Below, piece by piece: positions 4,148 to 64,000 of a DNA stretch of 64,000 bases (position 1 is its first letter; each line of letters begins with the position of its first letter). The DNA is from Desulfovibrio piger (GTDB lineage Bacteria; Desulfobacterota; Desulfovibrionia; Desulfovibrionales; Desulfovibrionaceae), in assembly GCF_012843875.1 (NCBI RefSeq), contig NZ_JABAFY010000004.1, forward strand, positions 62,001-126,000, read 5' to 3'. A model generated the notes under the pieces. It was not told where the DNA came from, ran no database searches, and worked only from the letters and a program-made list of their open reading frames with translations. Made by a program: the position numbers and the translations under genes.

Positions 4148-5515
<1,368 letters not shown>

Positions 5516-5644
5516 ACAACGTTGGCCGCAATGCCTTAGTTTTTTCTAGCCGCTAACAGCGGACAAGTCAAATGCCGGGGCCACCGGGGGAGAAAAATGG
5601 GTAAAATTTTATGAGATCCGTGTCCCGGCAGGGGCGGGGCCGCG

Positions 5645-5693
5645 AAAAAAGGGGGGAAGGGACATCCCTGCCGGGATGCTCCTTCCCCCCTTT
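5645..5693 (-). terminator. Rho-independent terminator of the surface-modification operon
   Basis: On the minus strand, GGGGGGAAGGAGCATCCC, a short loop, then GGGATGTCCCTTCCCCCC followed by TTTTTT. It lies 28 bases after the stop of the YidC/sulfatase fusion gene. The stem composition is close to the dispersed repeat family, but the pyrimidine tail is replaced by a true U-run. Confidence 0.88.
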
Positions 5694-5720
5694 CATGACG
5701 CTGCCGGAGCAGCGGGACCG

Positions 5721-8261
5721 TTATTGGTAGGCGCCTTCACGCGTGCACTTGGAGGCATCGAACAGGGTGCCTTCCATGCGGTACTGTTCGAAGATGTAGG
5801 CGTTCTCCTTGTGTTCGCTCCAGCGCGCGCCGCCGCGGGCATGGGTGAGGATGCGCGGCTTGGGCAGGGCGGCCGGGTCACGCATCTCGAACTCGTCGGA
5901 GGTGCCGACGCCCTGCAGGGCCAGGGTGGGCACGTCGGCGCTGGACATGAAGGCATCGCTGATGCGCAGCTCGCCGCGCTGATGGGGTTCCTTGACCATC
6001 AGGAGGGCGTGGGGACGGCCGGGAGCGTAGGGCGCGGTCTGGAAGACGGTGCCGTCGGGGAATTCCTTGCCGTCGTTGTAGGTACGCTCCACCATGGGGC
6101 TGTCGCTCTCGCCGTGGTCGGAGACCAGGATGATGCGCGTGTTGTCGTAGATGCCGGCTTCCTTGAGCTGGTCGAAGAAGATCATCAGGTAGCGCAGCAG
6201 ATGGCGTTCGGCGTAGTAGTGTTCGGGCAGCAGGCCGTCGACGAAGAAGAGCTGGCCCTCGGTGGCCGGATAGGGGTCGGCCACGATCTCGGGCTGGCCG
6301 TCCTTGAGGTCGGGGGCGTAGTGCCACATGTAGTGGGACAGCATGGTGTAGAAGACCTTGGCCGTGCTGCGCGGGGCATCGGTGGTGATGCCCGAGGTGA
6401 AGGCGAAGCGGAAGAAGGCGTCGCCCGCGCGGCAGGCGTCCATGCTGGCCACCAGGATGCCGTCGCCGGCGTCATGCCAGTTGCCGTCGTCGTAGATCTT
6501 CTGCTTGATGATGTTGGGCGAGGCCTGGAACAGGCCCAGCATGGCGAAGAAGCTGCTGAAGTCCCGCAGGCTGGTGCCCTGGTGGTACTTGAGCTGGAAG
6601 TCGTCCTTGACCTGGGGCACGGTGGTGACGTTCTCCACCTTGCCGAGGTGACGTTCGTAGAAGTCCTGGTTGAAGAACTCCAGGCCGTTGAGCATGCAGA
6701 CGTCGTAGCCGTGGGCCGCGAAGTTGCGGGGCATCACGGCAAAGGCGCTGTTGATGTTCTCTTCCAGGGTCACGTCGCGGCGGGCGTTGACGGCCGCCGG
6801 GCTGTAGGCGTGGCCGCCGTAGATGCTGGGCAGGCTCATGACCGTGGCGTCGGCCATGGAGATGGTGTCGGGGTACCAGACGAAGCCGTCCATGCCCTTG
6901 CGGAAGCCGTTGGTGAACCAGGGGTCGTCCAGCATCCGTTCGATATGGCCGCCGGTGAACATGTCCATGACGATGACGATGACGTTTTCGCCGTCCTTGG
7001 AATAGGACTGCATGTCAGCCACATAGGCGGGCGGGGTGAAGCTGGTCTTGGCCTGTTCGGGCTCTTCGGCGGTCAGGGCGTTCCAGGCCGTGAGGGCCAC
7101 CAGGGAGAACACGGCGATGGAGAGCACGCGCGGCAGCTGCAGGCGCACCTTGGGGAAGGCGAACAGCAGGGCCGTCAGGCCCAGGGCCACCAGCACGGGC
7201 AGCAGGCCGTCCTTGAAGGTGCTCATGGGGCCGGTGAGGGCGGCCTCACGCAGGAAGCGGATGCCGTCCAGGGCGCCGAAGTGGCCGGGCAGCACGAAAA
7301 GGTTCACGAAGGCGAGGCTCAGGGCCCAGAAGGCCACGAAGGCCGGGATGGTCTTGGCCTTGGCCGGGAACCAGAGCCAGAGCACGAAGACCACGAAGAA
7401 GGTCAGCGAAAGGTAGCGCACCATGCCCAGCAGCACGTCCAGGGGACCGGCGGCGAAGAAGTTGGGGTCGCTGGCGTAGGACTGGAAGGGCACGTACAGG
7501 AAGATCAGGATGGCCAGACCGGCGCAGGACAGGCTGTAGACCGAGCGCATGGTGGCGGCCATGACGGTGTTCATGCCGCCCTGGGCAAAGCCGGGCTTGC
7601 GGAAACGGGGCAGGCGGATGGGCAGGCGCAGGTTCTGGAGCAGGAAGAAGACGTTGTTCATGGTCCAGAAGATGAGCAGGGCCGAGGCCGCGTTGTACAG
7701 CAGCGCCAGGAAGAAGAAGGCGATGATGATGGCCTGCAGGGTGTCCTTGCGCGTCAGGCCCGGGGTGGTCAGCGTGGCGATGATGTTGACCACGGTCATG
7801 ACGATGGGCAGGGCGTTGACGCCCCAGAGCAGGCCGTCGGGCTGCGAAAGGTCGGGGATCATCAGGCAGGGCTGGCCCTGCAGCTGGGTGAGCCCCAGGA
7901 TCATGTAGTACGCGCCGGTCAGGAAGGGGATCTGCAGGGCCACGCCGAAGGCCGAACGGACGGCCAGCAGCGGATGGTAGGCGTAGCGCTTGTAGAGGTT
8001 GTTGATGCGGCGCTGGCGCTCGGCCCCCTTGGATTCCTTGCGGATGCGGGCCAGCTGCGGGGCCATGATCATCTGGAGTTTCTTTTCCCGGGCTTGGGTG
8101 CCCACGGCCAGACGTCCCAGGGGGATGAAGGCCACGGCGCTGATGCAGGACAGGACGAGGATGCTCAGGCCGTAGTTGTGGGTGAACTGGAGGCTGCCGA
8201 GATAGATGGCCCGGTAGATGATCTCGATGGGCAGGATGAATATTTCATACAGAAGCGACAT
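5721..8261 (-). CDS. YidC-like domain fused to membrane sulfatase-family domain
   Basis: The 846-residue polytopic membrane protein has three parts. Residues 1 to about 215 match the YidC/Oxa1 insertase core: a YGLSILVLS helix, a charged KKLQMIMAPQLARIRKE hairpin, IPDLSQPDGL, LPIVMTVVN and a final FWTMNNVFFLLQN. About 230-395 holds four or five further transmembrane helices. About 425-846 is a sulfatase/alkaline-phosphatase-type domain with VIVIVMDMFTGG (metal Asp433, candidate nucleophile Thr436) and ILVSDHGES (Asp715, His716). The Thr nucleophile recalls LtaS and phosphoethanolamine transferases. The position of the conserved insertase groove Arg appears to be Ala here. The gene is last in an operon after a TagF-like gene, so transfer of a phospho-substituent at the outer face of the inner membrane is inferred. 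The start is supported by AAGGAAACGCC before ATG. Confidence 0.8.
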   Translation of the reverse strand: MSLLYEIFILPIEIIYRAIYLGSLQFTHNYGLSILVLSCISAVAFIPLGRLAVGTQAREKKLQMIMAPQLARIRKESKGAERQRRINNLYKRYAYHPLLAVRSAFGVALQIPFLTGAYYMILGLTQLQGQPCLMIPDLSQPDGLLWGVNALPIVMTVVNIIATLTTPGLTRKDTLQAIIIAFFFLALLYNAASALLIFWTMNNVFFLLQNLRLPIRLPRFRKPGFAQGGMNTVMAATMRSVYSLSCAGLAILIFLYVPFQSYASDPNFFAAGPLDVLLGMVRYLSLTFFVVFVLWLWFPAKAKTIPAFVAFWALSLAFVNLFVLPGHFGALDGIRFLREAALTGPMSTFKDGLLPVLVALGLTALLFAFPKVRLQLPRVLSIAVFSLVALTAWNALTAEEPEQAKTSFTPPAYVADMQSYSKDGENVIVIVMDMFTGGHIERMLDDPWFTNGFRKGMDGFVWYPDTISMADATVMSLPSIYGGHAYSPAAVNARRDVTLEENINSAFAVMPRNFAAHGYDVCMLNGLEFFNQDFYERHLGKVENVTTVPQVKDDFQLKYHQGTSLRDFSSFFAMLGLFQASPNIIKQKIYDDGNWHDAGDGILVASMDACRAGDAFFRFAFTSGITTDAPRSTAKVFYTMLSHYMWHYAPDLKDGQPEIVADPYPATEGQLFFVDGLLPEHYYAERHLLRYLMIFFDQLKEAGIYDNTRIILVSDHGESDSPMVERTYNDGKEFPDGTVFQTAPYAPGRPHALLMVKEPHQRGELRISDAFMSSADVPTLALQGVGTSDEFEMRDPAALPKPRILTHARGGARWSEHKENAYIFEQYRMEGTLFDASKCTREGAYQ

Positions 8262-8297
8262 GGCGTTTCCTTGAAAGCATATCCGGCAAGGGCCGTG

Positions 8298-9632
8298 CTA
8301 TTTCGCTTTGGTGGCGGCAGCTTCGGCCGCGTGTTCGGCGTCCATGCGGGCCAGGGTGTCCACGGTCCACTGGGCGATGGCTTCACCGCTCCGGCCCCAG
8401 CAGGCCACGGATTCCTCGCGGAAGGCGGCGATGGCGGAGGAAGGCGTCTTGAGGGCGCGTTCTACCACGGGCACGATGTTGTTGAAGTCCTCGGGCGAGA
8501 CCACTTCGCCCAGACGGGCGGCCACGGTGTCTTCCCAGATGACGCCCAGGTCCGCCACCTCGTAGAGTTCGGGGTTGCGCACGGGGATGTCCAGGGTGAT
8601 GACGGGCTTCTCGTAAAGGAAGGCGAAGTCGAAGCGCACGCAGGACTTGTCCGAGATCATGACGTCGGCCCGGCTCATGGAGGCGGTGGCGTCCATCTCG
8701 GTATCGAAGCTGACGTTGGGGTAGTCGCGCAGCATCTCGTGGATGGTGTCCAGCATCTCGGTCTCCACCTTGAGGGACTGGGGATGCGGGCGCAGGATCA
8801 CGTCATAGCCGGCCTTGGCCAGATCCAGCAGGAAGTTGGGGCCGCAGATGTTGAGGCAGCCCTTGTTGCCCCACGAGGGCGCCACCAGCACCACGGGCGG
8901 GGTGCTCCGGCCTTCCTTCTTGCGGGCTTTGGCGGCCAGCTCGTCCAGATAGGGCAGGCCCAGGGAGACGCATTCCTTGGGCGGCAGGCCGCGCAGCTCT
9001 TCCACCTTGCGGATGCTGGGCAGCATGAAGTCGCCCACCATCAGGACGGCGTCGTAATGGTCCAGGGAGCCTTTCTGGTACATGGCGATGTCGCCCACGC
9101 CGTGGCAGATATGGGCCAGGTTGGTCACGCGGCGCGGACGCGGCATGGGGAAGCCGGGCGTGCCGATGTTGGGCGTGGTGGAGAGCATGATGTCGGCGCG
9201 ACGACCGGCGGCGCGGGCAAAGGCCGCGGAACCCGTGCCGATGTAGCGCGAGTTCATGAGGTCGTTCTCGATGGTCAGGGCCGGGTCTTCCACATCCATG
9301 GTGATGTAGGAGAAGGGCACGCCGCGGCGCAGGAAGGCGTCGATGACGGGCTTGAAGGTGTAATAGTAGCTGCGGCCTTCGGAGAACATGAGGATGCGCT
9401 CGTGGTGCAGCTGCTTTTCGGGACGGCGCTCACCCTTGGCCCTGCCCATGATGGCGTAGACGATGTTCTTGACGAAATAGAGCACCGTACCCACCAGGCT
9501 GATGGCCAGGTAGACCAGCACGTTGCCCGTGCCGGGGTCGAGGTAGGCGTAGGAGGGCGCGGGGAACAGGGCTTCCAGCACCAGCCAGAGCCCCAGATAG
9601 GCGCCCACGGAAATCAGAAAACCGCGCTTCAT
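8298..9632 (-). CDS. CDP-glycerol glycerophosphotransferase-like (TagF-like) protein
   Basis: The 444-residue protein starts with a hydrophobic anchor (MKRGFLISVGAYLGLWLVLE and a second helix ending VLYFVKNIVYAIM). A GT-B-like domain follows, with LMFSEGRSYYYTFKPVIDAF, THICHG-like NLAHICHGVGD, VLVAPSWGNKGC, VILRPHPQSLK and MISDKSCVRFDFAFLYEKPVI. These last segments correspond to the TagF/TagB polyol-phosphate polymerase signature (RPHP and SD.SS...E). It probably transfers a polyol- or choline-phosphate group from a CDP-activated donor at the cytoplasmic face. Its ATG overlaps the upstream TGA (ATGA), showing translational coupling to the LicC-LicA fusion gene. The substrate is not known. Confidence 0.78.
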   Translation of the reverse strand: MKRGFLISVGAYLGLWLVLEALFPAPSYAYLDPGTGNVLVYLAISLVGTVLYFVKNIVYAIMGRAKGERRPEKQLHHERILMFSEGRSYYYTFKPVIDAFLRRGVPFSYITMDVEDPALTIENDLMNSRYIGTGSAAFARAAGRRADIMLSTTPNIGTPGFPMPRPRRVTNLAHICHGVGDIAMYQKGSLDHYDAVLMVGDFMLPSIRKVEELRGLPPKECVSLGLPYLDELAAKARKKEGRSTPPVVLVAPSWGNKGCLNICGPNFLLDLAKAGYDVILRPHPQSLKVETEMLDTIHEMLRDYPNVSFDTEMDATASMSRADVMISDKSCVRFDFAFLYEKPVITLDIPVRNPELYEVADLGVIWEDTVAARLGEVVSPEDFNNIVPVVERALKTPSSAIAAFREESVACWGRSGEAIAQWTVDTLARMDAEHAAEAAATKAK

Positions 9633-11107
9633 GCCAGTTGTTCTCCGCGTTGCAGCAGTTTCAGGTTGCGGTCCATTTCCGCGATGCGGCCACGACCGTA
9701 GTCGATGCACTCGCGGTAGAAGCCCCACAGGCCCCAGATGTAATCCACGATGATCATGGCCTTGAGCAGGCGGGTGCGGTCCGCGCCGCTGGCTTCGATA
9801 AAGGCGTCCAGCAGGGGGCCGGAAAGACGGGTCTCGGTGACGAAGCTGGCGTAGTCCCAGTAGGGCGAGCAGAAGCAGGCGTACTCGAAGTCGATGAGCT
9901 TGATGTCGTCGCCCTTGCGCAGGATGTTCTCCAGCACGAAATCGCGATGGCAGAAGCGCTTCTCGTCGCTGTCCATCTCGCGGGCGAAATCGTAGAACAG
10001 GCTGCGCTCATGGTCGGCCAGCAGGTTGACGCCGCTCTGGCGTTCGTAGAGCTTGACCTCGGAAAGCACGGAGAGCACGGCGCTGGGGCCGTACTTTTCG
10101 CGGAAGCCTTCGGGCATGCGGATGTCATGCAGGCGGCGCATGATGTCCACCACCCCGCGCACCTCGAACCGGTCCAGGGTGTCGTGGTTCAGGATGCGGT
10201 AGCCTTCCAGAAAGTCCGTGGTCTTGATGCCGCCCGCGTAGAAGTGGCACTCGGGCGTGATGTCCAGATCCTTCACCATCTCCAGCATGGCCGCTTCCAC
10301 GCTGCGGTCGATGATCTGGTCGGTGCCCTGGCCGGGGATGCGCAGCACAAGGCCCTTGCCGTCCAGCTGGATGTGATAGGTGTCGTTGGTCAGGCCCTTG
10401 AGCTTTTCGGCCATCTGGGTCTCGGAGCACTGGTCGGCCAGTTCGTCGGGCGTCAGCAGGCCCAGGGAAAGGGCGTCGCTCAGGCTGTCGATCTCGCAGA
10501 GCAGCATCTTCACCCGCGTGGCGTAGACGGGCACGCGGTCCAGGATGCGGATGACGGAGTCTTCCCAGTAGTCGTCCGGGCCGCTCCTGTCCAGTTCCTC
10601 GCGGATGAGGGCCGCTGCCTCCTCGGTCCAGTAGGAGACGCCGGACATGCAGTAGCCCGAGGGCGAATCCTTGCGCACGGAGACCACGCGGTCGTCGGCA
10701 TCGGTGATCAGTTCCCATTCATGGCCCTGCTGGGTCTGCTGGCAGATGAACTGCGAGACCCCGGGACGCACCAGGGGCACCACCGGACGGCGGATGTAGG
10801 TGTCACCGTCGATGACCAGGCTGTCGCCCAGGCGGTGGGCCACCAGCTGGAGGGAGGAATAGTTGTTGGCCGTGGCATACTGCGCCGAGATGATGAGCTG
10901 GACGCCGTATTTGTCCACAAGATAGTTGAAGCATTCGTGCTTGTAACCGACCACCAGGGCGATGTCGGTGACGCCGTCGGCATGGAGCTGGCGGATGGTA
11001 CGTTCCACCAGCGGATATCCGCCGATGTTGAGCAGGGGCTTGGGCTTCAGATAGGTGAAGGGGCGCAGACGCGTCCCGAAGCCGGCACAAAGAATGTTGG
11101 CACGCAT
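9629..11107 (-). CDS. LicC-like nucleotidyltransferase fused to LicA-like choline kinase
   Basis: The 492-residue product has two domains. Residues 1 to about 225 form a sugar-nucleotidyltransferase-type fold with ILCAGFGTRLRPFTYLKPKP and VIDGDTYI, as in LicC CTP:phosphocholine cytidylyltransferases. About 230-492 is a choline/ethanolamine kinase (APH-like) domain with CHRDFVLENIL (catalytic Asp389, Asn394) and LIDFEYA (metal-binding Asp406). Together they could phosphorylate choline or a similar alcohol and activate it as the CDP derivative. Choline itself is inferred from the family; ethanolamine or another alcohol remains possible. The start at 11107 has AGGAG upstream. An upstream in-frame extension lacks support. 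It is the first gene of the three-gene operon. Confidence 0.85.
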   Translation of the reverse strand: MRANILCAGFGTRLRPFTYLKPKPLLNIGGYPLVERTIRQLHADGVTDIALVVGYKHECFNYLVDKYGVQLIISAQYATANNYSSLQLVAHRLGDSLVIDGDTYIRRPVVPLVRPGVSQFICQQTQQGHEWELITDADDRVVSVRKDSPSGYCMSGVSYWTEEAAALIREELDRSGPDDYWEDSVIRILDRVPVYATRVKMLLCEIDSLSDALSLGLLTPDELADQCSETQMAEKLKGLTNDTYHIQLDGKGLVLRIPGQGTDQIIDRSVEAAMLEMVKDLDITPECHFYAGGIKTTDFLEGYRILNHDTLDRFEVRGVVDIMRRLHDIRMPEGFREKYGPSAVLSVLSEVKLYERQSGVNLLADHERSLFYDFAREMDSDEKRFCHRDFVLENILRKGDDIKLIDFEYACFCSPYWDYASFVTETRLSGPLLDAFIEASGADRTRLLKAMIIVDYIWGLWGFYRECIDYGRGRIAEMDRNLKLLQRGEQLA

Positions 11108-11211
11108 GGGAACCACTCCTGTGCGTTGTGCAGGGATGTGACGGACATCCCCGATGCTGGTGAGGGGGACTGCGCTTGCGCAGGAAAACCTTATCCCCCG
11201 GGGTTCGCGAT

Positions 11212-11230
11212 CCCGGATGCCGTATCCGGG
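11212..11230. repeat. Inverted repeat upstream of the Lic-type operon
   Basis: CCCGGAT, a five-base spacer, ATCCGGG. It lies about 105 bases upstream of the LicC-LicA start, in the promoter or leader region. It may be an operator or part of a stem-loop; the sequence alone does not decide. Confidence 0.35.
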
Positions 11231-11390
11231 GTGCGGAGGTTTCTCACGACACGCAAAAAAAGGCAAGGGCTGTCTGGCGGTTGTCGCCGGACGGGGCAGG
11301 CCGGGAGGTGCGGAAGACGGCCCGGCCCATGCTGTACAAGGCGAAGCGTTAGTTTTTTGTGAGCGGGATGCAGCGCGGGAAGGGCCCGGC

Positions 11391-11753
11391 TCAGTCGTCC
11401 TTGCGGGAGGGGGCCGTATCTCCCGGCGCGGGGCGGAACGAAAGGACGCGGCAGTGGTGCGGCGCGGGAGCTTCCGCCTGGCCCTGCATCAGGTCGAAGT
11501 CGGGGGCCAGGGGCTGGGCCGCGGGGGCGGGGCCGTCTTCATGCGGCTGGGCCTGCTGTGCCCAATAATAGTTGAACAGCTGGTTCTTGTAGCGTTTGGC
11601 CTGGATCATGGAAAAGACCAGGACGGCCTCTTCCCAGCGCTGGGTCGGTTCGAAACGGCTGGCGATGGTGGCGTACTTGCTCCACAGCGACATGAGCGAC
11701 GCCTCGTCGAGGGCGTCCAGCTGGCGGGCAAGGCGGGTGAGCAGTTTTTCCAT
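11391..11753 (-). CDS. Conserved-looking small protein of unknown function
   Basis: The 120-residue protein starts MEKLLTRLARQLDALDEASL. It has a charged, helix-rich N-terminal 80 residues (YATIASRFEPTQRWEEAVLVFSMIQAKRYKNQLF and so on, in pieces) and a low-complexity Pro/Ala-rich tail. No signal peptide or membrane segment is present. The start is chosen because GGAGG precedes the ATG at 11753, while the longer open frame is Gly/Pro-rich shadow. The partner genes give no functional clue. I do not recognise the family. Confidence 0.6.
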   Translation of the reverse strand: MEKLLTRLARQLDALDEASLMSLWSKYATIASRFEPTQRWEEAVLVFSMIQAKRYKNQLFNYYWAQQAQPHEDGPAPAAQPLAPDFDLMQGQAEAPAPHHCRVLSFRPAPGDTAPSRKDD

Positions 11754-60780: not shown

Positions 60781-62172
60781 TTACTTGAGGAAACCGATCA
60801 TCTTCCAGTAGGGCACGAGTATCAGGGGGATGAAGAACGCGAAGGCCACCATTCGGATGGCGAAAGCGCCCATGATGTGGCGCAGGGTGACGGCGCCGCT
60901 CATGAAGGTGTACAGCAGGTAGCCGATCTCATAGGGGAAGAGCAGCTGGTCCAGACCGTACAGCAGGGCGTAAACGAGGGTATAGGGGTCCATGCCCAGG
61001 CTGACGGCCAGCTGTGCCAGCGGGCTGCCCAGGGCCCCGACGGCCGCCATGGGGGTCATCAGGAAGTTCACGATCACGCCCAGCACATAGGAGAAGCTGA
61101 TGGCCATGACCGCGCCGCGTCCTTCAAACAGGGAAGACATGTGGGCCGAGATCCACTTGGGGATGTTCAGGTCCTGCGCCACGGCACCGATGGACATGCA
61201 GGCCGCCAGGAAGATGAGGAACGAAAGGTTGACCTTGCGCAGATCCTGCTCGGTAGCCAGGTTCATGCCGGGCATGAAGCAGGCCATGCCCACCAGGGCA
61301 AAGACGAACGCGCCGGGGAGATGGTGCCACTGTTCGGTCACGAAGGCGATGAAGCCGATGGACAGCACCAGGAAGATCTTGATTTCATCAGCGGAGACGG
61401 GCCCCATCTCCTTCAGGCGTTCCTCAAGGACGGTCTTGAGGGATTCTTCGTTCTGGAGCCGCTCCTTGCCGCGGATGATGAAGACCATCATGATGGAACA
61501 GGCCATGTAGAAGATGGAGAAGGGCGCCATCTGGATGATGAAGTCGACATACTCTACGGGAACACCGGTGGTGTTGGTGACGACCTGAAGGGCAAGAAGG
61601 TTCATCTCCGTACCGGTGATGCAGAACAGGCCGGGGGCGATGGCCGCCAGATAACCGCCCATGATCAGGGCCGAGGACATGCGGGAGCGGGTGTCCACGT
61701 TGAGGGCCTGGATCAGGCCCTGGGCGATGGCGACGAAGATGACCGTGCGGGCCAGACCGGAGGGGACAAGCAGGGTCAGGATGATGCCGGCCCCCATGAG
61801 ACCTATCATGGTCTTGGTGAAGGAGGAGCCCATCAGGATCATGCTGTGCAGGGCGATGCGCTTGCCGAGGCCCGTACGGTTGAGCACCTGGGCGATGATG
61901 AGGGCGGAGAAGCACATCCACGGCAGGAAGGTGCACCAGCTGGAGAAGGCGACGGCAGGCTTGGTGACAAAAAGCGCATACAGGAACGTGAGGATGGCCG
62001 CGACGATCGCGGAGGGCAGGATCTCCACGGCCCAGGCGATGACGGCCCACAGGGTGATCGCCAGGAAAAGCGGCGTCTTCGGGCTGGCGATCTCCATTTC
62101 CGGGACGGTAAAGAATACGATCAGGGGCAAGCCCAGGCTGAGAGCCCACTTCCACCAGTTACCTTGGACCAT
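60781..62172 (-). CDS. DASS/SLC13-family anion transporter
   Basis: The 463-residue integral membrane protein has about 12 helices and the divalent-anion:sodium symporter (SLC13/CitT) pattern: PLFLAITLWAVIAWAVEILPSAIVA, SSWCTFLPWMCFSALIIA, GIILTLLVPSGLARTV (SNT-like motif positions) and LVYALLYGLDQLLFPYE. It probably imports the di- or tricarboxylate-like substrate of the operon. GGAGG precedes ATG 62172; the ORF start four codons upstream is less likely. It is the first gene after the sigma-54 promoter. Confidence 0.82.
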   Translation of the reverse strand: MVQGNWWKWALSLGLPLIVFFTVPEMEIASPKTPLFLAITLWAVIAWAVEILPSAIVAAILTFLYALFVTKPAVAFSSWCTFLPWMCFSALIIAQVLNRTGLGKRIALHSMILMGSSFTKTMIGLMGAGIILTLLVPSGLARTVIFVAIAQGLIQALNVDTRSRMSSALIMGGYLAAIAPGLFCITGTEMNLLALQVVTNTTGVPVEYVDFIIQMAPFSIFYMACSIMMVFIIRGKERLQNEESLKTVLEERLKEMGPVSADEIKIFLVLSIGFIAFVTEQWHHLPGAFVFALVGMACFMPGMNLATEQDLRKVNLSFLIFLAACMSIGAVAQDLNIPKWISAHMSSLFEGRGAVMAISFSYVLGVIVNFLMTPMAAVGALGSPLAQLAVSLGMDPYTLVYALLYGLDQLLFPYEIGYLLYTFMSGAVTLRHIMGAFAIRMVAFAFFIPLILVPYWKMIGFLK

Positions 62173-62248
62173 GATGACCTCCATTATAATATACCGACAA
62201 GATTGGTTTTATTTTTTCTTTCGGTAGAACGCTCTTTTTTTCACTAAC

Positions 62249-62264
62249 ATCAATAAACGTGCCA
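62249..62264 (-). promoter_or_regulatory. Sigma-54 (-24/-12) promoter of the catabolic operon
   Basis: On the minus strand TGGCACG-TTTA-TTGAT, matching the consensus TGGCACG-N4-TTGC with one mismatch in the -12 element. It lies about 75-90 bases upstream of the DASS transporter start. The divergent gene encodes a sigma-54 activator, which supports the assignment. Confidence 0.75.
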
Positions 62265-62290
62265 TTTTAAAAAGATTATTAAAATCAGTA

Positions 62291-62312
62291 TGTTATTAAA
62301 ACAGAAATAACA
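62291..62312. promoter_or_regulatory. Inverted repeat, candidate activator-binding site
   Basis: TGTTATT, an eight-base spacer, AATAACA, upstream of the sigma-54 promoter in the AT-rich divergent region. It lies about 30-60 bases from the -24 element, closer than typical upstream activation sites but possible. The 62340-62368 stretch also shows TAGACA-17-TATATT, a plausible sigma-70 promoter for the regulator. Confidence 0.45.
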
Positions 62313-62450
62313 AAATAAACATAATGTTGCAGATAATCTTAGACAATCTATTGAAATTATTTTATATTATTTTTGAAACATTTGAAACGCAGTGTCCATC
62401 CTGCCGGATGGGCAGGCGGGATCCGCCGTCCTTTCACAAAAGGAGTCTCC

Positions 62451-64000
62451 ATGCACCCCGGATTTTGTGAGTCCATCATCCATGTAGGTGAGCAGCCTGC
62501 GGATTTTTGTGTCGTCACTCCGTTCAAGACGCTGGCCAAGTATGCCGAGGAGACGGCCCATCAGCTCAACATGCGGACCTGCATCGCGGTATCGAAGTTC
62601 GACAATGACGTAGAGGTCGCCCTGCACATCCTCAATACGGAAAAGATCAAGCTGCTGGCCACACGCGGGCATGCGCTCCACATCCTCAGGAATTCCACCT
62701 CCATCCCCATCCTTTCCATCGAATACTCGGCCGAGAATTTTTTCGAGACCCTCCTGCCTTTTCAGAACAGCAACATGCGTGTGGGCCATCTCTGCTTTCC
62801 CGGCCAGGGGCTCAAATTCATGCGGATAGCACAGCTGCTCGGTCTGCGGGGCTACAGGCTGGAAGTCGAGGACAGGAACAATATCGAAGCGGCCCTGAAG
62901 AAGGTCCGGGAGGAAAACATATCTCTGCTTGTGGGGGGATTTGGCCTGATAAGCAAGGCAAGGGAGGAAGGTTTCCACGCCATTCCCCTGCTTTCTGAAA
63001 ATCAGGAAGCTGTCTACAAGGTGTTTTTGGAGGCAAAACACATCATAGAAATGGATGCTCTGAATATACAGAGACGAGATTTCATAAATACTGTTTTGAA
63101 TATCAATCCGAATATCATCATAGTCGTAGATAAAAACTATACGATACGCTACGCGAATGACAAAGCCCAGGGGGTCTTTGGCGTCATATCGGAGCAGATC
63201 ATCGGCATGGATCTGGGCAGGATATTCCCCAGGACGGATTTCTCGCGCATCATGGGAGAAAGGAAAGGTGCATCGGACTCCTTTATCCTGAAAGACATGA
63301 TAAAGCGTGAGTTCCTCTTCACCATCGTCGATATCAAGCTCAAGGGGAATTTTGACGGCTATGTCCTAAGCCTGAACAATACCGTCGATATCCAGAAGAA
63401 TGAACGGCAGGTGCGGCAAAACATCTACCAGAAAGGGAAGCGCCGTTACTTCATGTTCAACGACATTATCGGCGACAGTGCCGCCATCAGTCAGGCGAAG
63501 TTCATAGGGCAGCGTTTTGCGGACAGCGACGGGCCCGTGCTGCTGATCGGAGACACGGGCACAGGCAAGGAGATGTTCGCCCAGGCCATCCATGCGCACA
63601 GCCGGCGGCAGGAGGCGGCCTTTGTTTCCGTCAACTGTGCGGCCGTGCCCGAAAGCCTGCTGGAAAGCGAACTCTTTGGCTATGAGGAAGGCGCTTTTAC
63701 CGGGGCCAGACGCGGGGGCAAGACGGGGCTGGTGGAGCTGGCGCATGGGGGGACCCTGTTCCTTGACGAGATAGGGGAGATGCCCTTGCGCTTGCAGGCC
63801 CGCCTGTTGCGGGTCCTGCAGAACAAGGTCGTGACCCGTCTGGGGAGCACCCGTTTCGTGCAGGTGAACGTGCGCATCATCTGTGCGACGAACAGGAACC
63901 TTTTTGCCATGGCCAGGCAGGGGCAGTTCCGGCAGGACCTGTTCTACAGGATCAATACCCTGCTGCTCAAGATCCCGTCGCTCGAAGCCCGCAGGGAAGA
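62451..64000 (+). CDS. PrpR-type sigma-54 activator (3' end outside window)
   Basis: The visible 516 codons begin MHPGFCESIIHVG, with AAAGGAG 7 bases upstream. The N-terminal part (about 10-190) resembles the PrpR N-terminal sensor (MRTCIAVSKFDNDVEVAL, GHLCFPGQGLKFMRIAQLLG, EENISLLVGGFGLI). A PAS domain follows at about 205-320 (NIIIVVDKNYTIRYANDKAQG). The AAA+ sigma-54-interacting domain starts at about 355 with Walker A GDTGTGKEMF, GAFTGARRGG and FLDEIGEMP. It runs off the right edge, and no stop was seen. The ligand is unknown. It is divergent from the catabolic operon, which it probably activates. Promoter-like TAGACA-17-TATATT lies upstream. Confidence 0.88.
   Translation, partial: MHPGFCESIIHVGEQPADFCVVTPFKTLAKYAEETAHQLNMRTCIAVSKFDNDVEVALHILNTEKIKLLATRGHALHILRNSTSIPILSIEYSAENFFETLLPFQNSNMRVGHLCFPGQGLKFMRIAQLLGLRGYRLEVEDRNNIEAALKKVREENISLLVGGFGLISKAREEGFHAIPLLSENQEAVYKVFLEAKHIIEMDALNIQRRDFINTVLNINPNIIIVVDKNYTIRYANDKAQGVFGVISEQIIGMDLGRIFPRTDFSRIMGERKGASDSFILKDMIKREFLFTIVDIKLKGNFDGYVLSLNNTVDIQKNERQVRQNIYQKGKRRYFMFNDIIGDSAAISQAKFIGQRFADSDGPVLLIGDTGTGKEMFAQAIHAHSRRQEAAFVSVNCAAVPESLLESELFGYEEGAFTGARRGGKTGLVELAHGGTLFLDEIGEMPLRLQARLLRVLQNKVVTRLGSTRFVQVNVRIICATNRNLFAMARQGQFRQDLFYRINTLLLKIPSLEARRE

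Follow-up and report, generated by a model that had tools for sequence, protein, structure and literature searches.

A 64,000-nt stretch of a Desulfovibrio genome (labelled G000; the stretch is referred to here as the window) carries three adjacent minus-strand genes that we read, with a modest degree of confidence, as a horizontally moving cassette decorating an envelope molecule with phosphocholine, its activity, acceptor, and topology being predicted. In order, the genes encode a choline kinase/CTP:phosphocholine cytidylyltransferase fusion (licCA, 11107–9629, 492 amino acids [aa]), a TagF-like GT-B protein with N-terminal helices and a YLDPGTG motif (9632–8298, 444 aa), and a YidC/alkaline-phosphatase-superfamily fusion (YSF, 8261–5721, 846 aa), in which a YidC-like domain is followed by membrane helices and an alkaline-phosphatase-superfamily domain. 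The linkage of the genes, their presence or absence as a unit, their folds, and their conserved residues were observed directly. A preliminary description of this region had proposed that the genes form one operon, and this was confirmed: the licCA stop and TagF-like start codons overlap by ATGA (9629–9632, minus strand), YSF follows after 36 bp, and an intrinsic terminator (5694–5645, minus strand), consisting of a hairpin of −40.6 kcal/mol (z = −6.5 versus 200 shuffles) with six T residues (TTTTTT) at its end, lies downstream. A simple signal scan of the window missed this terminator and returned one promoter-like site, at 10917–10890 within licCA (0.9 expected).

Joint conservation of the three genes had been set beforehand as a test of the preliminary description, and it was borne out: among the 60 genus genomes common to the LicCA, TagF-like, and YSF searches, 8 carried all three genes and 52 carried none in full. 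The identical gene order occurs in the window's genome and in five other genus genomes (G057, G006, G008, G043, and G044) in at least two settings, so the arrangement is not a matter of chance. Specifically, the trio has the same purA/purH flanks as the window in G057 and G006, and none of the window's flanking genes was found in the 18 kb examined around it in G008, G043, and G044. G007 carries a distant version in the order licCA-like, SSS-like symporter, tagF-like, YSF, and G031 carries tagF-like, YSF, YSF on a 6.5-kb contig with the LicCA-like gene on a separate contig. Of 61 genus genomes, 9 had a two-domain LicCA match, and these same 9 had a near-full-length TagF-like match. Shorter LicCA matches, mostly to the first 70 residues, also occurred (some match was present in 60 of 61 genomes) and are no more than would be expected from other nucleotidyltransferases. 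The TagF-like search additionally gave four matches that were weak and short; two of these came from cassette-free genomes (G020 and G037). The YSF search also recovered the ordinary YidC of most genus genomes.

In the window, the cassette occupies the interval from purA to a small conserved open reading frame (ORF) with its stop at 11391 (5426–11390). We examined 28 loci from 31 genomes searched with purA and found this site free of the cassette in 24, with the small ORF 6–574 bp from purA and purH also visible in 15 of the 24. YSF adjoined purA in two other loci (L134 and L135), and the last two (L150 and L158) had no small-ORF match. G008 has a cassette-free purA site (L144) and carries its cassette elsewhere. 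The trio thus behaves as a mobile unit, and gain en bloc is the simplest reading.

Pfam recognizes NTP_transferase and Choline_kinase domains in licCA. Its LicC-type cytidylyltransferase domain (aa 1–215; 10463–11107, minus strand) resembles pneumococcal LicC over residues 2–215 (1jyk; phmmer E = 1.1e-33), and its LicA-type choline kinase domain (aa 223–471; 9695–10441, minus strand) resembles pneumococcal LicA (4r77; E = 3.3e-19). Active-site residues of pneumococcal LicA are named in PMC4364537, and 10 of the 12 residues checked are identical in licCA, comprising all seven aligned choline contacts (T29, D176, V178, Y197, E213, W251, and W254) and all three catalytic residues (N181, D194, and E196); Y268 was unaligned. 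When 11 kinases, namely that of the window and 10 relatives, were aligned with pneumococcal LicA, all ten residues were kept in the window and in G008; the remaining kinases varied at V178 and E213, and the L115 ORF was cut short. The kinase thus groups with the LicA choline kinases of the Lic-1 system, and the first domain groups with LicC by homology, its activity being predicted.

In the cytidylyltransferase domain, the equivalents of pneumococcal LicC D105, D107, E216, and D218 are retained (Asp100, Asp102, Glu205, and Asp207), D192 is replaced by Glu182, and Tyr82, Trp136, and Tyr190, which we take to be part of the LicC aromatic choline box, are kept. According to PMC6697681, Treponema denticola PntC has Glu where the choline enzyme has Asp105 and Asp192. 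At position 105, Glu was present in 5 of 5 PntC-type rows and in none of the 14 LicA-linked rows (pneumococcus included), which had D in 4, S in 6, P in 3, and C in 1; the window's licCA has Asp. Position 192 was dropped as a discriminator, with Glu in 12 of 14 LicA-linked rows and Asp in 2 of 5 PntC-type rows. Taken together, the strong homology and the retained residues suggest that LicCA phosphorylates choline and makes CDP-choline, choline being the likeliest substrate, in line with the choline-type fused kinase/cytidylyltransferase of the preliminary description. A head group of phosphoethanolamine or another small amino alcohol in place of choline seems unlikely to us: the kinase does fall in a mixed choline/ethanolamine kinase family, and the Glu at the Asp192 position is as in T. 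denticola PntC, though also common to most LicA-linked rows, but the aligned aromatic contacts and Glu213 of LicA are retained, as are Asp105 and the aromatic positions 82, 136, and 190 of LicC with their presumed choline-box role.

The second gene had been described as a TagF-like transferase, and the predicted structure agrees. Pfam Glyphos_transf (PF04464) passed marginally (23.1 bits versus a cut-off of 22.1), and a profile of 46 members (the window's protein and 45 of 53 listed references) matched Cps3D (E = 3.4e-7), TarL (E = 3.5e-4), and Bcs3 (E = 0.003), whereas the single-sequence search of solved structures gave no match. The model (predicted local distance difference test [pLDDT] of 89.3) had TagF (3l7l) as its top Foldseek match (E = 1.3e-11) and aligned with TagF in VIA-align at Z = 19.4 and a root mean square deviation (rmsd) of 6.3 over 341 residues, with UDP-GlcNAc 2-epimerases somewhat above TagF (Z = 21.5 versus 19.4). 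The protein thus passes the curated PF04464 score and has the TagF fold. H177, R281-P-H-P284, D328, and S330 are invariant in all 46 members; relatives outside Desulfovibrio share no more than 34% identity with the protein. It resembles the TagF/TarL/Cps3D polymerases in its GT-B fold and in its RPHP and SD-S motifs, but is short and has N-terminal helices with the YLDPGTG motif.

YSF scored above the Pfam cut-offs for 60KD_IMP (YidC, PF02096; 65.6 bits versus 35) and Sulfatase (26.6 versus 25). Its first part (aa 5–214; 7620–8249, minus strand) has the YidC/Oxa1 fold, aligning with E. coli YidC (6al2) at Z = 18.1 and an rmsd of 3.2 over 198 residues; YSF remained below the curated YidC cut-off of TIGR03592 (62.3 versus 84.3 bits). 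The column of the YidC groove Arg, which we take to be E. coli YidC R366 and which corresponds to YSF residue 42, contained N in 34, S in 9, A in 3, and T in 3 of 49 members, and Arg in none. This part is unlikely to act as a normal insertase. A helical block (aa 226–422; 6996–7586, minus strand), presumed to be transmembrane as in PbgA, follows. The alignment of aa 226–846 with PbgA (6xlp) reached Z = 19.3 over 403 residues with an rmsd of 14.2, and the parts are therefore shifted relative to PbgA. The last part (aa 423–846; 5724–6995, minus strand) is an alkaline-phosphatase-superfamily domain, presumably periplasmic; aa 423–844 aligned with LtaP (4uop) at Z = 19.7 and an rmsd of 4.0 over 309 residues, and sulfatases scored comparably (first row, Z = 21.2). 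The Foldseek and VIA match lists for YSF cover mostly this C-terminal domain, and folds missing from them are uninformative.

In an alignment of the window's YSF with 48 of 77 listed references, D433, T473, H643, D715, and H716 were invariant (49/49). EptA/LtaS-type enzymes combine a Thr nucleophile with Asp/His metal ligands, and in all 49 members T473, D433, D715, and H716 fit this arrangement, the roles being presumed from order and spacing. The preliminary description had left the choice between a membrane sulfatase and a phosphotransferase. A large domain of the EptA/LtaS kind is indeed present, but type I sulfatases carry a C/S-x-P-x-R formylglycine motif, and neither the window's YSF nor the 440–500 region of any of the 49 members contains it; with Thr invariant at the presumed nucleophile position, the sulfatase reading was dropped. 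We therefore read YSF as a putative EptA/LtaS-type phosphotransferase joined to a YidC-derived module that lacks an insertase hallmark. It shares with EptA, MCR-1, LtaS, and PbgA the C-terminal fold and the invariant Thr with Asp/His, and with PbgA the helical block, but differs in its N-terminal YidC-like domain and in its TagF-like gene partner. Since the longest structural matches of YSF are to PbgA/YejM, it could be a regulator or sensor, as that protein is thought to be, and not an enzyme; with the presumed catalytic Asp, Thr, Asp, and His invariant in all 49 members, we regard this as highly improbable.

Under the phosphocholine reading, LicCA would convert choline to phosphocholine and then to CDP-choline, as its homology and residues suggest. 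On the cytoplasmic face of the membrane, the membrane-anchored TagF-like protein would use CDP-choline to load phosphocholine onto an acceptor or carrier held in the membrane. On the outer face of the inner membrane, YSF would then take up phosphocholine as a covalent Thr473 intermediate and deliver it to a final acceptor (a glycan, a lipid, or a protein), and its YidC-like part may serve as a membrane groove or docking site. The division of labor and the order of steps between the TagF-like protein and YSF are inferred. LicD (PF04991) had no match in the window's genome, nor was a CDP-choline lipid transferase found there, the only PF01066 matches being PgsA and PssA (both above NCBIfam cut-offs); thus, this genome yielded no other known CDP-choline-consuming enzyme.

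A scan of the genome collection with the YSF alignment returned at least 591 stretches, at least 274 of them encoding relatives, and the counts below refer to the best 80 of these 274, taken as loci, and to locus DNA only, many loci ending at contig ends (L038, L040, and L042 are taken to be the same as the G057, G043, and G044 contigs). The neighbor searches used LicC and LicA profiles built from two sequences each and single sequences for other families, so head-group genes may be missed, and a Pfam or NCBIfam check was made for some matches only. The 80 loci span Desulfovibrio, Mailhella, Photobacterium, and Spirochaetia including Treponema putidum, as well as many Clostridia, Eggerthellaceae, Phascolarctobacterium, and others. 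In 54 of the 80 loci, a TagF-like ORF was no more than 300 bp away from a YSF ORF, with both on one strand in 52 of them; of the 47 loci whose YSF block is flanked by 3 kb or more on either side, 36 showed this pairing. YSF ORFs outnumbered TagF-like ORFs in 13 loci, equaled them in 41, and were fewer in one, where YSF was cut by a contig end.

The genes linked to the TagF-like/YSF pair vary by lineage. A LicA-type kinase was found in 14 of 80 loci (6 Desulfovibrio and 8 others), including the Clostridia loci L090, L095, and L115, in which separate licA and licC genes adjoin the pair (order in L095 and L115: tagF-like, YSF, licC, licA). Phosphoenolpyruvate (PEP) mutase was found in nine loci, seven of which also had a TagF-like ORF; L074, for example, carries tagF-like, YSF, PEP mutase, aminotransferase, LicC-like, and decarboxylase-like genes, and L063 carries a PEP-mutase/CTP_transf_like/NTP-transferase fusion. 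A class I/II aminotransferase accompanied a LicC domain in five loci (four Pfam-checked), four loci had a TagD-like cytidylyltransferase without PEP mutase (two checked, both below the NCBIfam cut-off), and six had another LicC-like ORF, that of L064 combining a nucleotidyltransferase with a HAD domain in one fusion that may belong to sugar metabolism. Three loci (L063, L066, and L103) fell into two head-group classes. Three LicA-bearing clusters contained transporters, namely BCCT in L102 (above the cut-off), SSS-like in L036, and NCS1-like in L111 (both below the curated cut-off).

In T. putidum (L123 and L124), YSF genes and two TagF-like genes form an array at 2,064,051–2,083,277, where some YSF consist of two ORFs, one YidC-like and one phosphotransferase, either broken or naturally separate. 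Genes that we name PEP mutase, decarboxylase, and PntC-type, on the basis of homology to L063 and L076, lie at about 2,028,695–2,032,977, approximately 31 kb from the array, in a region whose ORFs look polysaccharide-like by eye. The T. putidum LicCA is located approximately 180 kb from the array and adjoins a BCCT-like transporter ORF. This separation, together with the restriction of PF01066 in the window's genome to PgsA and PssA, makes it very unlikely that the operon produces phosphatidylcholine, even though the LicCA fusion is known from such a pathway in T. denticola, according to PMC8590670.

It is also conceivable, but rather improbable, that the TagF-like protein works like LicD, placing phosphocholine on a glycan in the cytoplasm without an intermediate, and that YSF has a separate later job such as a second transfer, LtaS-like polymerization, or removal of the group. 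TagF and TarL act on the cytoplasmic side; LicD, being without a match in the genome, could be replaced; and the catalytic domain of YSF reaches similar scores with LtaS/LtaP, PbgA, and superfamily hydrolases. A separate job is at odds with the excess of YSF over TagF-like ORFs in 13 loci and with the pairing of the two within 300 bp in 54 of 80. This excess fits one donor-maker serving several acceptor-specific transferases; in the Ept enzymes, one phospholipid donor feeds several transferases.

More broadly, it is possible, though we propose it tentatively, that the TagF-like/YSF pair is a general and hitherto undescribed machine that attaches CMP-activated head groups to bacterial envelopes, the bundled cytidylyltransferase deciding whether the group is phosphocholine, aminoethylphosphonate, glycerol phosphate, or another. 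The pair would then supply the missing transfer step of phosphonate tailoring, with the YidC-like domain turned to donor/acceptor handling. A transfer module shared by CMP-activated phosphates and phosphonates is a bold proposal.

Several observations weigh against the cassette and its proposed phosphocholine function. Absence of the cassette at purA could partly reflect loss in some lineages. In licCA, LicA I43 and K45 (nucleotide and MES contacts) are Val and Arg, LicC R129 is Gln124, and only 4 of 14 rows of LicA-linked LicC domains share Asp105; ethanolamine may still be a substrate. None of the operon genes was identified as a choline transporter. The YSF model is of moderate confidence (pLDDT, 76.9; predicted template modeling score, 0.66). 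Within locus DNA, 45 of the 80 YSF loci had no recognized head-group gene, and 25 had no TagF-like ORF of at least 350 aa. Among 65 flanking ORFs hand-chosen from 13 such bare loci (out of 146 ORFs in 16 loci), the families were mixed and without pattern, and no head-group family was among the 25 commonest of 83; at these loci, the pair may do something else or use genes located elsewhere.

The preliminary description, which had suggested decoration of a glycan or lipid with phosphocholine or a polyol phosphate, was largely right for the window's operon yet too narrow: the choline type applies here, and the linked head-group genes (choline-type, PEP-mutase/PntC-type, or TagD-like) vary from lineage to lineage. 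Its author knew of no described pathway with exactly these three parts in a Gram-negative sulfate reducer; the TagF-like/YSF pair also occurs in Clostridia, spirochaetes, Photobacterium, and others, and the LicCA fusion has been described in T. denticola (PMC8590670). As in the Lic-1 systems of Haemophilus and Streptococcus, a choline kinase and a CTP:phosphocholine cytidylyltransferase would feed surface decoration, but here LicA and LicC are fused, LicD has no match, and transfer is assigned to the putative TagF-like and YSF enzymes. The operon shares the LicCA fusion with the LicCA/CPT phosphatidylcholine pathway of T. denticola (PMC8590670), but a CDP-choline:diacylglycerol transferase was not found in the window's genome and the partner genes are different. 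With the PntC phosphonyl-tailoring clusters (PMC6697681), it has in common a LicC-like enzyme and CMP activation of a small head group, but differs in its fused choline kinase and in having Asp rather than Glu at position 105.

PMC10434233 otherwise associates phosphocholine on carbohydrates with Lic-1 including LicD, and says of some phosphocholine-bearing species that they have no known pathway. PMC6697681 states that the steps from activated phosphonates to modified surfaces are unknown and names LicD-like phosphotransferases or glycosyltransferases as neighbors; YidC, sulfatase, and TagF do not occur in its text. Aminoethylphosphonate and N-methylthreonine-phospho decorations of GlcNAc are reported on C. 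difficile flagellin, where three genes of the decoration cluster have no defined function (PMC8861647). Among the matches listed in the literature searched, with most subscription papers outside its scope, we found no description of a YidC-phosphotransferase fusion. The argument for a general transfer module is a good one. Bacteria that display phosphocholine or aminoethylphosphonate on their surface interact differently with the host, and a compact gene set that predicts both decorations, in a Desulfovibrio near D. piger (YSF of the window is a 99% match to the D. piger ATCC 29098 record, L038) and in many gut and rumen assemblies, makes these questions testable.

Other observations concern the same families. 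LicC-like cytidylyltransferase/aminotransferase (class I/II) fusions lie near YSF at L063:1112–2914, L066:8097–9899, L077:16659–18644, L082:3063–4892, and L094:7871–9883 (all Pfam-checked except L082), which suggests a further CMP-activated amino head group. Longer TagF-like ORFs occur at L090:8364–9989 (542 aa) and L115:5408–7123 (571 aa); the N-terminal part of the former matches an Rce1-like CAAX-protease domain, and Rce1-like matches were also seen in 2 of the 65 flanking ORFs of other loci. The spirochaete locus L049 (10 ORFs examined) contains LicD, radical SAM, and GT2 genes, and the position of LicD (L049:6916–7743) beside YSF/TagF-like indicates that LicD and the pair can coexist. A weakly EamA-like carrier follows YSF in G008, G043, and G044 and is located elsewhere in the window's genome; the gene is present in 25 of 61 genus genomes, 18 of which lack the cassette. 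Its similarity to EamA is weak (17.7 and 28.1 bits versus a cut-off of 28.2), and it has no solved relative, one chance match (E = 0.92) being the sole return; its reading as a LicB-like permease was rejected and was not used as evidence for choline. Finally, the G+C content of window positions 62001–64000 drops to 0.50–0.55; elsewhere in the window it ranges over 0.54–0.74 and mostly exceeds 0.60.

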